DNA of 64,000 bases from Salegentibacter agarivorans (GTDB lineage: Bacteria; Bacteroidota; Bacteroidia; Flavobacteriales; Flavobacteriaceae): contig NZ_FOOH01000007.1 of the NCBI RefSeq assembly GCF_900113135.1, positions 62,001-126,000 of the forward strand, given 5' to 3'. Shown here piece by piece: positions 59,203 through 64,000 of this stretch. The position numbers and the translations under genes were made by a program. Every line of letters starts with the position of its first letter. Positions within the stretch are counted from its first letter, which is position 1. The notes under the pieces are model-generated. The model ran no database searches, was not told the DNA's origin, and saw only the letters and a program-made list of their open reading frames with translations.

Positions 59203-59245
59203 CAAAATTAAGTTTAAGGTTTCTTATTAAATATGATAAAGGTCA
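59203..59245 (-). promoter_or_regulatory. hpf promoter with CRP/FNR-type site
   Basis: Minus strand: TGACCTTTATCA (59234-59245), 23 bases, then TAATTTTG (59203-59210), a perfect TAnnTTTG -7 box. With transcription starting near 59196 the dyad is centred near -43, the position used by class II CRP/FNR activators. There is no TTG -33 element, as expected for activator-dependent promoters. Confidence 0.6.
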
Positions 59246-59281
59246 CTTTGGATTCAATTAGACCAAATCATAACGATCAAT

Positions 59282-59722
59282 TTATGAGTATTCAGGCCGC
59301 TTGTCGGTATCTTTTATATACTCTGTAATTTTAAAAAGTTCTAACCTGTTTAACCTGAAGGCTTTTACAAAACTTGCGATTTCATCTTCCAAATGTTCGT
59401 GTTCCATTCTAAAAACCCTGGAATCTTCCATTTTTTCAAGAATCATTTTTCCTATTTGCTGCCTATGCTTATCAGTTTTCTCCAATAGATCCTGGCAACG
59501 CTCTTTTAATTCAAGAAGCTCATTCTTCATTTTTGAGGCCACCTTATAATTTTCATCTTTATCTATCCATATAAAATAGCTATCTAAAAGTTTATGTAGA
59601 AAAGTGAGATCGTCCCTGAAAAAATGTAAATCTGAATTCCAGTGTTTAGTGAGCGTATAGAGCTGCTCCATATTGGCTTCGGCAATAAAATCACCTTTTG
59701 GCCTTTTCCTTATACTTTCCAT
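59282..59722 (-). CDS. Conserved-looking helical protein of unknown function
   Basis: 146 residues, not recognised. Highly charged and probably all alpha-helical, with heptad-like stretches (MKNELLELKERCQDLLEKTDKHRQQIGKMILEKM at about 65-98) that suggest a coiled coil. Cytoplasmic, with no signal or membrane segment. It lies between hpf and the P-type ATPase gene and has the same promoter architecture as hpf, so it is probably a stress-induced partner. An octad of acidic and basic residues around HEHLEDE is notable. Confidence 0.75.
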   Translation of the reverse strand: MESIRKRPKGDFIAEANMEQLYTLTKHWNSDLHFFRDDLTFLHKLLDSYFIWIDKDENYKVASKMKNELLELKERCQDLLEKTDKHRQQIGKMILEKMEDSRVFRMEHEHLEDEIASFVKAFRLNRLELFKITEYIKDTDKRPEYS

Positions 59723-59744
59723 AATTAATAGTTTTATAATACAT

Positions 59745-59787
59745 TGAAATTAATATAATACGATCTAAAAAAGTATGATTTTCGTCA
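59745..59787 (-). promoter_or_regulatory. Promoter of the 146-residue protein gene with CRP/FNR-type site
   Basis: Minus strand: TGACGAAAATCA (59776-59787), 23 bases, then TAATTTCA (59745-59752), six of eight -7 positions matched. Dyad arms and spacing are identical to those of the hpf promoter 540 bases away, while the spacer sequences differ. Confidence 0.6.
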
Positions 59788-59800
59788 GTCGCAGGTAAGT

Positions 59801-62428
59801 TTAATTCGCCAATTTCAGGAACTTTAAAATTTGGGATAACACTAATGAAGCAAACCCAAAAACCACGATAATTATAAAGTGATTCGCTGAAAGTGGTACC
59901 AGTGATAGAGCTTCTGACATTAAAGGAATATGATAAACCAGCACCATAGTTAAAACCGAAAAAACCAATGCTCCCCAAACCCACGGGTTGGTGGTAACTT
60001 CATTTTTCAGGAAAGATATTTTTCGTCCGGGTAGATTAAAGACATTCAGTAACTGACCTAAAATAAGGGTATAAAAAGCAATATTATTTACCATAATAGC
60101 ACTTAGACCCATTTTAAAATGTGTGTAGGCCACAACGCCAATTACCGCCGCTGTAATACTTAAACCATATAAAACTGTAGCGGTCCAGAGTTTTTTAGTA
60201 AGTATTGGCTCCTGCGGATCCCTGGGAGGATCTTTCATAATGTTTGGATCTCCTTTACCCACACCCAGCGCTAATGCCGGGAAAACATCGGTTACCAGGT
60301 TTAGAAAAAGTATTTGGAGCGGAAGTAAGGGCATGGGCAAGTTACTAAAGGATGCCAGGGCTACCGAGATTATCTCTGCCAGGTTACACGAAAGTAAAAA
60401 AATCACAAATTGCCTGATATTTTCAAAAATGGTACGTCCCTGTCTTATGGCAAGCTCGGTAGAGGTGAATTTATCGTCCATCAGGATCACATCGGCAACT
60501 TCCTTGGCAGCCTCGGTTCCTCTAATTCCCATGGCAATGCCGATATCTGCTTTTTTAAGGGCCGGGGCATCGTTTACCCCATCTCCCAGCATTCCCACAA
60601 TCGCTTTATTTTTTTGATAAAATTCTACTAAATCTAATTTTTGGCCGGGAACCATTCTTGCGAAAATTCCCGCCCGCATCAAGGTCATTTGTTTATCTTC
60701 AGGTAAACTGCCTATTTCTTCGAGATCGGCACCATGTACAACCATTTCTTCAGGGGCGTCTTCAGCTATTAACCCAATTTCCTCTCCTATTTTTCTAGCA
60801 GTATCAGGATGGTCGCCGGTTACCATTACCACCCGTATTCCCGCGTTTTTATAAGTTTCAATTGCTTGTTTAATATCCTTTCGCGGCGGATCTAAAAATC
60901 CTAAAATTCCCACGAAGGTGAGATTATTCATTAAATCTTCATAATCTGGCTTTGCATCAGTTTGTTTAAAAGCAAAAGCCAGAACACGCATACCTTCGGC
61001 TGCAATTAATTTTGACTGTTTTTGCCATTCCTCTTTATCCAGAAATTTCTTTGCCCCATCTTTGGTTAAAATGAAATCACAGGAATCAAGCAAAGCCTCC
61101 AAAGCTCCTTTCACACAAATTAAATATTTGCTTTCAAAATTATGTAAAGTGGCCATTTTTTTGATTTCAGCATCAAAAGGAACCTCCTGTATTTTCGGAT
61201 ATTTTTGCTGAAGTTTTTTATAATCAAATCCCATCTCGGCAACAAATTCAACTAACGCGATCTCCACGGCATCTCCAGTGAATTTATTATCTTTTAATTT
61301 TGAATTATTACAGAGGCTACCAATTTGTATCAGTTTTTCAAAAGCAGGATCTGTTTTGAAATTTGCAGCTTCGGTTGCCGGAAAATCTAAAGTGCCCAAC
61401 ATTAAATGGTGAACGCTCATTTTATTTTCGGTAAGTGTGCCAGTTTTATCGGTGCAAATTATCCCGGTTTCGCCTAAAGTTTGAACCGCCTCCAATTTTT
61501 TAATCACTACATTCTTTTTAGAAAGTCGAAGCATTCCCCTTGCAAGAGCTATGGTGGCCACAATGGGCAAACCTTCAGGAATTGCTGCTACCGCTAAGGC
61601 AATTCCGGTTTTTATCATCAACATTAAATCTTTGCCCTGGAAGTAGCCGGTTATTACAATTAGCATAGCTAGAATTAACGTGAGCCATATAAGCCATCTG
61701 CTTAATTTTTTCAACTTTTTTTCTAAAGGCGTACTTTGCTTTTTAGCACTACTGGTGAGTTCGCTAATACGGCCAATTTCGGTATTAATTCCTGTTGCTA
61801 TTACAATGCCCTTTGCTTTTCCCCTAACCGCAATCGTACCTTTATATAACATATTTTTACGATTGGCCAGAGGAACTTTTTCGGGAAGTGTTTCAATATT
61901 TTTTTCTATCTGATTACTTTCCCCGGTGAGAATAGCTTCTTTTACCGCAAAACTTTCGGTTTTCAGCATTCGGCAATCGGCAGGAATAACATCGCCACTC
62001 TCCAGAATTACAATATCACCGGGAACCAATCCTGCCGCCTTAATTTGCTCTTCCTTACCACTACGCAAAACATTGGCCTGAGTTTCTACCATTTTCTGCA
62101 GAGCTTCTACTGAGCGAAGCGCCTGCCATTCCATAAAAAATCCAATAAGCGCAGTAATAAGGATCACTATTAAAACCGCCGTGCCTTCCAGCCATTCGCC
62201 AAAGAAATAAGCCAATGCCATCGCGGCAGCCAGAATATAAATTATAGGATCAAGAAATTGCTCTAAAAATATGAGTCCGATATTTTTAGATTTCGATTCT
62301 TTTAATCGATTAGCTCCGTGTTTTTCTAATCTTGATTTAACTTCAGAACTATCTAATCCTTTATTGGGATCTACATTAAATTCCGACAAGATTTTTTCAA
62401 CAGCGAGCGTGTGCAGATCTTTAGACAT
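59801..62428 (-). CDS. Cation-translocating P-type ATPase (P2, Ca2+ pump-like)
   Basis: 875 residues. Cation_ATPase_N domain at residues 5-65, A-domain motif AILTGESNQIEK, phosphorylated Asp327 in CTDKTGTLTENK, N-domain KGALEAL, and hinge MLGDGVNDAPALKKADIGIAM near 614. Ten membrane segments are expected; AVAAIPEGLPIVATIALARG in M4 carries the PEGLP motif of P2A Ca2+ pumps. Probably exports Ca2+ or Mn2+. It follows ppsA across an R2 repeat and precedes two genes with CRP/FNR-type promoters. Confidence 0.92.
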   Translation of the reverse strand: MSKDLHTLAVEKILSEFNVDPNKGLDSSEVKSRLEKHGANRLKESKSKNIGLIFLEQFLDPIIYILAAAMALAYFFGEWLEGTAVLIVILITALIGFFMEWQALRSVEALQKMVETQANVLRSGKEEQIKAAGLVPGDIVILESGDVIPADCRMLKTESFAVKEAILTGESNQIEKNIETLPEKVPLANRKNMLYKGTIAVRGKAKGIVIATGINTEIGRISELTSSAKKQSTPLEKKLKKLSRWLIWLTLILAMLIVITGYFQGKDLMLMIKTGIALAVAAIPEGLPIVATIALARGMLRLSKKNVVIKKLEAVQTLGETGIICTDKTGTLTENKMSVHHLMLGTLDFPATEAANFKTDPAFEKLIQIGSLCNNSKLKDNKFTGDAVEIALVEFVAEMGFDYKKLQQKYPKIQEVPFDAEIKKMATLHNFESKYLICVKGALEALLDSCDFILTKDGAKKFLDKEEWQKQSKLIAAEGMRVLAFAFKQTDAKPDYEDLMNNLTFVGILGFLDPPRKDIKQAIETYKNAGIRVVMVTGDHPDTARKIGEEIGLIAEDAPEEMVVHGADLEEIGSLPEDKQMTLMRAGIFARMVPGQKLDLVEFYQKNKAIVGMLGDGVNDAPALKKADIGIAMGIRGTEAAKEVADVILMDDKFTSTELAIRQGRTIFENIRQFVIFLLSCNLAEIISVALASFSNLPMPLLPLQILFLNLVTDVFPALALGVGKGDPNIMKDPPRDPQEPILTKKLWTATVLYGLSITAAVIGVVAYTHFKMGLSAIMVNNIAFYTLILGQLLNVFNLPGRKISFLKNEVTTNPWVWGALVFSVLTMVLVYHIPLMSEALSLVPLSANHFIIIVVFGFASLVLSQILKFLKLAN

Positions 62429-62439
62429 TTCTTAGTATT

Positions 62440-62538
62440 TTACTCGATAATCGAAATTAAATATTCCGGGGATTGCCTCGAAATCAGATTATATTTTCCA
62501 ATATCAATGCTTCCTGAGCCTGCCCCCGAAGTTGTTTA
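62440..62538 (-). repeat. R2 repeat, copy C, starting at the ppsA stop codon
   Basis: On the minus strand it begins TAAACAACTTCGGGGGCAGG, with TAA the ppsA stop codon, and runs through TCTGATTTCGAGGCAATCC and TTTCGATTATCGAGTAA. It fills the intergenic space between ppsA and the ATPase gene. Same start point relative to the host stop codon as copy B. Confidence 0.85.
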
Positions 62539-64000
62539 CTGCCCGGCCTCGGCCTTATTAATATTCTCTATTCCTTTTAAAAGTGCATCAGGATTAAACG
62601 AAATACTATCTATTTGTTCTTTTACCAGAAATGAAGCGAATTCGGGGAAATCACTGGGCGCCTGCCCGCAAAGTCCTATTTTCTTCCCGACTTTCCTGGC
62701 TTTTTGTATCGCTTTGGAAACCATTTCTTTAGCAGCAGCATTATTTTCATCAAAAACACTTACCATTAATTCTGAATCGCGATCAACACCCAGCGTGAGT
62801 TGTGTGAGATCGTTAGATCCTATGGAAAATCCGTCAAAATGTTCTGCAAATTCTTCAAGGAGAATTACGTTAGAGGGAATTTCAACCATCATATAGATTT
62901 CAAGGGAATTCTTTCCGCGCTCCAAACCGAATTTTTTCATAAGCTTTATTACGGATTTTGCTTCTTCAATCGTTCTGCAAAAAGGAATCATCACTTTTAA
63001 ATTATCAAGACCCATTTCTTCCCTAACTCTTTTAATAGCTTTGCACTCAAGCTCAAAAGCTTCTTTATAGTTAGGATGAGGATAACGCGCAGCGCCTCTA
63101 AAACCAAGCATAGGATTTTCTTCTAAAGGTTCAAATTGACGGCCTCCAATTAGGTTTGCATATTCGTTACTTTTAAAATCGCTAAGCCTAACAATTATTT
63201 CTTTTGGGTGAAATGCGGCCGCCATTACGGCTATTCCGCGGGATAATTCTTCAACAAAAAAATCACTTTTATTTTTATATTGCCAGGTAAGTTCGTCTAT
63301 GGTTTTTTTTGCAGCTTTTTCTTTAACCTCATCATATTTTACCAAAGCCATTGGGTGAATTTTTATTTTATGGGTAATTATAAATTCCATTCGTAATAAT
63401 CCAATTCCTGTATTTGGATAAAAAGAAAGTTGAAAGGCCCGGTCTGGATCTGATAGAATGAATTTAGCTTCGGTTTTTGGAAGTGAAATTTTTCCAAAAT
63501 CAATTTCCCTGGTATCAAACTCCAGGGCACCTTTATAAATAAAACCGGTTTTGCCTTCACAGGAAACGGTAATCATTTCCCCGTCTTTAATTTTTGTAGT
63601 AGCATCGTTTGTACCCACTATGGCCGGCACACCAAGTTCGCGGGCTACAATTGCCGCATGACTGGTTCTTCCGCCTCTATCGGTTACAACTGCAGCTGCC
63701 AATTTTAATAGCGGATCCCAGTCTGGGCTGGTGTTATTGGTAATAAGAATCTCCCCGGGATTTAACTTATGTCCTTCTTCAGGTGACTTCAAAAATCGCG
63801 CTTTACCGGTGGCGATGCTGGAACCAATAGCGCTTCCGCTAGTTAAAATTTCGCCTTTTTGCTTTAGGTGATATTCAATATAAAGGCGTTTATCTTCATC
63901 CTTATGTACCGTTTCGGGGCGGGCCTGGGTAATAAAAAGTTCGTTGGTTAAACCGTCTTTTGCCCACTCCACATCCATTGGGCGGTTATAATGTTTTTCG
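62536..64000 (-). CDS. ppsA: Phosphoenolpyruvate synthase, C-terminal part (runs off right edge)
   Basis: 488 codons visible, continuing beyond the right edge: EKHYNRPMDVEWAKDG is the end of the ATP-binding domain. GGRTSHAAIVARELGVPAIVGT holds the phosphorylated His, and the C-terminal TIM barrel has LLRMEFII, MLGFRGAARYPHP, MVEIPSNVILLEEFAEHFDGFSIGSNDLTQLTLGVDRDS and GLCGQAPSD with the catalytic Cys. It makes PEP from pyruvate and ATP for gluconeogenesis. An internal ATG at 63978 is not the start. Confidence 0.95.
   Translation of the reverse strand, partial: EKHYNRPMDVEWAKDGLTNELFITQARPETVHKDEDKRLYIEYHLKQKGEILTSGSAIGSSIATGKARFLKSPEEGHKLNPGEILITNNTSPDWDPLLKLAAAVVTDRGGRTSHAAIVARELGVPAIVGTNDATTKIKDGEMITVSCEGKTGFIYKGALEFDTREIDFGKISLPKTEAKFILSDPDRAFQLSFYPNTGIGLLRMEFIITHKIKIHPMALVKYDEVKEKAAKKTIDELTWQYKNKSDFFVEELSRGIAVMAAAFHPKEIIVRLSDFKSNEYANLIGGRQFEPLEENPMLGFRGAARYPHPNYKEAFELECKAIKRVREEMGLDNLKVMIPFCRTIEEAKSVIKLMKKFGLERGKNSLEIYMMVEIPSNVILLEEFAEHFDGFSIGSNDLTQLTLGVDRDSELMVSVFDENNAAAKEMVSKAIQKARKVGKKIGLCGQAPSDFPEFASFLVKEQIDSISFNPDALLKGIENINKAEAGQ

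Follow-up and report, generated by a model that had tools for sequence, protein, structure and literature searches.

A candidate class II CRP/FNR-type regulon of low-oxygen and stress genes in Salegentibacter agarivorans and other Flavobacteriaceae

Promoters of hpf and a neighbouring gene

The window analysed here is a stretch of 64,000 nucleotides (C27:62001-126000) from the 4.30 Mb genome of Salegentibacter agarivorans. Towards its end, the minus strand carries hpf, a gene for a protein of 146 residues, and the genes of a P2-type cation ATPase and a PEP synthase (Table 1). An earlier note on this DNA had pointed out that the promoters of hpf and the 146-residue gene share TGAC-N4-ATCA, 23 bases and TAATTT, and we confirmed this arrangement and its coordinates on the minus strand. 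The -7 element of the 146-residue gene, TAATTTCA, deviates from TAnnTTTG. As the note had also stated, the two spacers are unrelated; its view that this is not a recent duplication agrees with the relatives, where boxes are kept while spacers diverge. In fact, the box with its 23-base spacer (hereafter N23) is kept before hpf in six of six Salegentibacter loci with diverged spacers. The nearest named relatives of the 146-residue gene are likewise from Salegentibacter species; six of seven named relatives have an exact box with N23, and the seventh (L013) has TGAG instead. The ATPase and PEP synthase genes, which the note had counted in the same block, form a row headed by a 128-residue gene, whose own N23 box lies outside the window at C27:127326-127368.

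Table 1. Promoter elements and genes of the block (positions in the window).
Feature	Position	Strand	Remarks
hpf promoter, whole	59203..59245	-	box TGACCTTTATCA, N23, -7 element TAATTTTG
hpf promoter, box TGACCTTTATCA	59245..59234	-	read directly from sequence
hpf promoter, spacer of 23 bases	59233..59211	-	
hpf promoter, -7 element TAATTTTG	59210..59203	-	
146-residue gene promoter, whole	59745..59787	-	box TGACGAAAATCA, N23, -7 element TAATTTCA
146-residue gene promoter, box TGACGAAAATCA	59787..59776	-	read directly from sequence
146-residue gene promoter, spacer of 23 bases	59775..59753	-	
146-residue gene promoter, -7 element TAATTTCA	59752..59745	-	
hpf, ribosome hibernation factor, Ribosomal_S30AE, 99 aa	58879..59178	-	Pfam PF02482, E 2.1e-14
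146-aa protein, undescribed family, three long helices predicted	59282..59722	-	family in 20/80 genomes
P2-type cation ATPase, last of the row led by the 128-aa gene	59801..62428	-	
PEP synthase, start cut off by the window, 788 aa in the full contig	62536..63978	-	

Sequence and geometry of the box

The literal motif that the note had put forward for a genome search, run as TGAC-N4-ATCA-N{22,24}-TAATTT, gave three copies against none with the reversed control; the third copy lies within a reading frame. This narrow form is only a subset of TGAY-N4-RTCA, and it was abandoned. The wider pattern TGAY-N4-RTCA-N{21,25}-TAnnTTT occurs at 19 places in the genome (reversed control, 7), at least two of them inside called reading frames (L019 and L028), and the spacer is exactly N23 in 17 of the 19. 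With TAnnTTTG and spacers of N{9,37} there are 16 places against 8 in the control, namely seven at N23, three at N30 and one at each of six other spacings. In 465 kb of fetched regions, which were picked for holding sites or regulators, the distance between a box and a following TAnnTTTG is N23 in 38 cases, and no other spacing from 5 to 44 was seen more than twice. In its general form, the element reads TGAY-N4-RTCA, a spacer of exactly 23 bases, then TAnnTTTG.

The class II box of FNR/ANR is TTGAT-N4-ATCAA. In Flavobacterium psychrophilum, TAnnTTTG is located at -12 to -5, according to section 15 of PMC9723704. Given this location and the 23-base spacer, the 12-base box would span -47 to -36 with its centre at -41.5. 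With the start position taken from F. psychrophilum, this two-fold TGA...TCA box is at the class II activator position; the class II assignment of the earlier note stands, and its estimate of near -43 gives way to -41.5. We infer that the candidate sites would be activated by a bound CRP/FNR-family protein.

Genes behind the box in S. agarivorans

We mapped 7 of 12 regions of the genome, chosen for holding sites, and found 14 N23 sites with TAnnTT, 12 of them with a gene start at most 450 bases away. Universal stress protein (Usp) genes lie behind N23 sites on C4, C26 and C35, and the Pfam scan added a fused ccoNO gene and genes for formate-THF ligase and MlaE. The other boxed genes are hpf, the 146-residue gene, the 128-residue gene ahead of PEP synthase and the P2 ATPase, and a 136-residue gene. 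The upstream region of this genome's own hemN was searched for the exact box, and none was found.

Several sites deserve separate mention. Two N23 sites on C20 have no called start in range; one intergenic N23 site there (L052, 10911-10953), which has no called start within 450 bases, might belong to a short gene or an RNA. Another box on C20 (L052, 15715-15726) lies upstream of MlaEFD-like genes and divergent from a large signalling gene that appears CheB/CheR-like by eye. On C22 (L056, 7104-7115), a single palindrome is flanked on either side by an N23 promoter, with two divergent 138-residue genes, one of which precedes an apparent efflux cluster (by eye). The box upstream of fixI (L054, C32, 15942) is followed after N23 by AAAATTTG, which falls just short of the -7 element.

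Low-oxygen, respiratory and stress genes make up most of the targets found here and family-wide, as the note had expected. Its description of a CRP/FNR regulon around ribosome hibernation was borne out as to the class II CRP/FNR type and proved too narrow as to the centre, hpf being one target among many.

Distribution in Flavobacteriaceae

Exact N23-TAnnTTTG sites number 624 in 80 genomes of the family, against 9 for the reversed pattern, and at least one site is present in 72 of the 80; the enrichment of motif plus spacing that the note had predicted is seen family-wide as well as in the 17 of 19 places above. We then used the CRP half of L004, a regulator described below, as the query for CRP relatives (E 1e-10). 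The 11 genomes without such a relative have zero or one site each, eight of them none (Mann-Whitney p 1.4e-7, a co-occurrence statistic that ignores kinship, the genomes not being independent draws by descent), and the remaining 69, all with a CRP-domain relative, have at least one site each. Seven of the 11 are small (1.6-1.9 Mb), while four (G020, G036, G064 and G074) are of 2.6-3.4 Mb, so small genome size alone does not explain the missing sites. The mean number of sites per genome is 11.5 in the 36 genomes with a full receiver-CRP fusion like L004 and 6.3 in the 33 with another CRP relative. Since these 33 fusion-less genomes also hold boxes, the box alone does not indicate the fusion.

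Among 30 sampled loci of the family, four sites fall within reading frames and the first downstream gene was called for 24, of which 22 were covered by the Pfam scan. Cytochrome c was found four times and radical SAM twice, and four genes had no family; by eye, the two radical SAM genes and two unscanned downstream genes are hemN-like. FixS, hpf, a heavy-metal-type P-ATPase, thioredoxin, DeoC, TauE, a 2-oxoacid oxidoreductase, a rhodanese/beta-lactamase fold, a porin, an efflux protein, a PLP decarboxylase and OMPP1 occurred once each. By this tally most, not all, boxed genes fit low oxygen. Oxygen limitation raises cbb3 oxidase and heme-synthesis genes in F. psychrophilum (PMC9723704). In other families the pattern is noisier, with 194 matches (N21-25) against 27 for the control in 30 genomes. 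As far as sequence comparison goes, the box, its N23 spacer, the gene content, the recurrence and the co-occurrence with FNR-like CRP-domain regulators are established.

Candidate regulators

Five proteins with the PF13545 Crp HTH are encoded in the genome; a further cNMP-binding-like protein, recognised by eye (L055, C35, 9260-9838), was missed by the PF13545 search. L004 consists of a receiver, a cNMP-binding domain (PF00027, 6e-19) and a Crp HTH (PF13545, 3.6e-13), and belongs to the CRP/FNR family. Its N-terminal part is the receiver; the N-terminal cysteine cluster of FNR proper was not found, there being no CxxC in the sequence. The L004 gene lies directly after a PAS kinase gene and directly before a boxed Usp gene. 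A paralogue, L005, lies in a cluster with four N23 sites. L005 (L052, C20, 10983-11990) has no Pfam receiver match, and its phospho-Asp motif appears to be missing by eye.

Full-length fusions occur in 36 of the 80 family genomes (by eye, E 1.7e-78 or better) and in 43 of 296 genomes of a phylum sample (E 1e-50). Each of the best 30 loci, out of a set of at least 36 genomes, has retained the Asp motif of the receiver and a recognition helix of the E...R kind (E209/R213 in E. coli FNR), and 29 of them have an N23 box that begins 9-76 bases past the fusion stop. The next gene is Usp-like in all 29 (27 by start motif, two by eye). In the CRP-domain tree, 33 fusions (support 0.98) group with nine short flavobacterial FNR-like proteins (0.89).

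Such short proteins raise the question of whether a plain, receiver-less FNR-like protein of the CRP type reads the boxes, the fusion having other targets or a minor role. The candidates are the short protein beside fixI-cco in relatives and, in this genome, L007 for example. In the nine maps where they were found among the loci listed, short FNR-like proteins with an N-terminal CxxC adjoin fixI-ccoNOP and its box; in eight of nine aligned ones, picked by the CxxC pattern, there is a later Cys, with spacing unlike E. coli FNR. These neighbourhoods, the sites in the 33 fusion-less genomes and the E...R helix of L007 favour the plain FNR. However, no CRP gene was found beside fixI in this genome's fixI map, and L007 matches the CRP domain of the fusion weakly (22% identity); the boxes downstream of the fusion gene in the best loci, and the larger number of sites in fusion genomes, also stand against it. 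We consider this explanation rather unlikely. Since the short FNR is missing beside fixI, L004 and its paralogue L005 are the likeliest readers here. Judging from these genes and their surroundings, the likelier box reader in this genome is the receiver-CRP fusion with its FixL-like kinase, not a plain CRP/FNR; for many relatives, the probable reader of these boxes is a short FNR-like protein encoded next to fixI-cco.

The PAS kinase as a candidate oxygen sensor

Among solved proteins, the PAS domain of the kinase matches FixL first (1d06, E 6e-19) and then DosP, both of which sense oxygen through heme. We aligned the kinases of the 30 loci, three of which had nothing matching within their first 160 residues; among the other 27, which include the different PAS of L117, the His aligned with the heme ligand of FixL is kept in 26 and the distal Arg in 23. 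We take the roles of this His (proximal heme ligand) and Arg (distal) to be as in FixL. To our knowledge, a FixL-type His is also present in PAS domains that were never demonstrated to bind heme. The PAS domain of the kinase would, on this alignment, bind heme and sense oxygen. At L117, the kinase upstream of the receiver-CRP gene is LOV-like (light) by eye, hinting at sensor swaps.

Alternatively, the boxes may belong to a cAMP-responsive CRP regulon or answer another stress signal, such as starvation or light, rather than oxygen. The cNMP-binding fold kept in the fusion and the LOV-like kinase in one of 30 loci are consistent with this, but the targets include genes for the cbb3 oxidase and for its assembly as well as hemN-like genes, and the kinase PAS is FixL-like; we regard such a signal as improbable. 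That chance or recent copying made the two promoters alike, for which the literal copy inside a reading frame might be cited, is ruled out for practical purposes by the conserved boxes with diverged spacers, the spike at N23 and the 624 sites against 9.

The 146-residue protein family

The note had proposed the 146-residue protein as an undescribed member of the regulon, and this holds: it has no known family, and its family recurs and is often boxed. Of the 20 genomes with the family, 19 are among the 36 with a fusion (Fisher p 1e-7), and 26 of 37 family genes lie at most 20 kb from a fusion gene. An exact N23 box was present for 17 of 34 distinct members (duplicates removed), with identities as low as about 20%, in the interval from 300 bases upstream of the called start to 60 bases inside it; near genomes are favoured in this sample, because the window's own protein was the query.

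AlphaFold2 predicts three long helices (18-50, 56-95 and 102-139) with a mean pLDDT of 86.6. Across 37 family sequences F41 and H108 never vary, and W28, F34, H86 and F130 hardly do. Judged by how long the helices are, W28, H86 and H108 may come together at one end of the model. No Pfam family was over the cut-off (two were far below it, the best at E 0.034), NCBIfam gave no match at E 0.001, and Foldseek of the model against PDB gave none at E 0.001 or better among 568 matches up to E 10, the best being ISG65 (E 0.05), with many PA28 chains as well. On these searches a known family or fold was rejected, and the protein belongs to an undescribed helical family. A relation to alpha-spectrin, suggested by a profile search of PDB sequences (E 7e-4), was read as generic three-helix likeness and rejected. 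As a guess that we hold only weakly, this small protein might partner with Usp proteins or with ribosomes.

Discussion

We propose a class II regulon of Flavobacteriaceae in which a FixL-like kinase acts through a receiver-CRP fusion on low-oxygen genes, with a probability of roughly two in three for the proposal as a whole. As oxygen falls, the kinase with the FixL-like PAS would phosphorylate the receiver of the fusion; the fusion dimer would bind TGAY-N4-RTCA centred at -41.5 and recruit RNA polymerase with the primary sigma factor to TAnnTTTG. The targets switched on would be the cbb3 oxidase, universal stress proteins, ribosome hibernation, PEP synthase, the P2 ATPase and the 146-residue protein.

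The FixL-FixJ-FixK cascade of Alphaproteobacteria shares with this proposal a FixL-like PAS kinase, a receiver, a CRP/FNR-type regulator, FNR-type boxes and a cbb3 oxidase target. However, receiver and CRP-type domain are here in one protein: L004 has the receiver of a FixJ with a Crp-type output in place of the LuxR-type HTH, and it is not a FixK, a stand-alone CRP-type protein, as its receiver is fused. The targets here also include hibernation and Usp genes. FNR/ANR has in common the TGA half sites, the E...R recognition helix, the centre at -41.5 and the cbb3 and hemN-like targets, whereas in the fusion a receiver takes the place of the N-terminal cysteines of FNR, and the flavobacterial -7 element and strict N23 spacer are particular to the present sites. 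A precedent for a change of reader is known from Caulobacterales, in which a FixK inherited FnrN boxes, according to PMC4999443.

The DosR regulon includes CtpF and a hibernation factor. DosR/DevR and OsdR of Actinobacteria resemble the present case in the kinase with a response regulator and in Usp genes clustered with the regulator. They differ in that the DNA-binding domain is here of CRP type, not NarL/LuxR type, in the box, and in the sensor, PAS here against the GAF heme sensor of DosR. The note's remark that the gene mix recalls DosR is apt, since the predicted targets of OsdR, a related regulator in Streptomyces, include Usp genes and that of pyruvate phosphate dikinase (PMC5069765). 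The output being Crp-type and fused to the receiver, the system belongs to neither FixL-FixJ-FixK nor DosR. No prior account of this regulon or of the receiver-CRP fusion was found in the literature, a weak indication from titles and abstract openings of partial coverage.

At even odds, we suggest that a two-protein, short-circuited FixL-FixJ-FixK took over FNR-type boxes in the genus, with a FixL-like heme kinase and the receiver-CRP fusion as its parts, and drives a DosR-like dormancy regulon (hibernation, Usp, cbb3 oxidase) that includes the three-helix family. This would be a possible case of three regulatory steps condensed to two proteins. The entry of flavobacteria into low-oxygen dormancy is little described, and a promoter signature this strict can be searched for, so that candidate targets can be listed directly for many genomes. 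It also links ribosome hibernation with what is probably an oxygen signal, and it places the uncharacterised 146-residue family in a defined regulatory setting.
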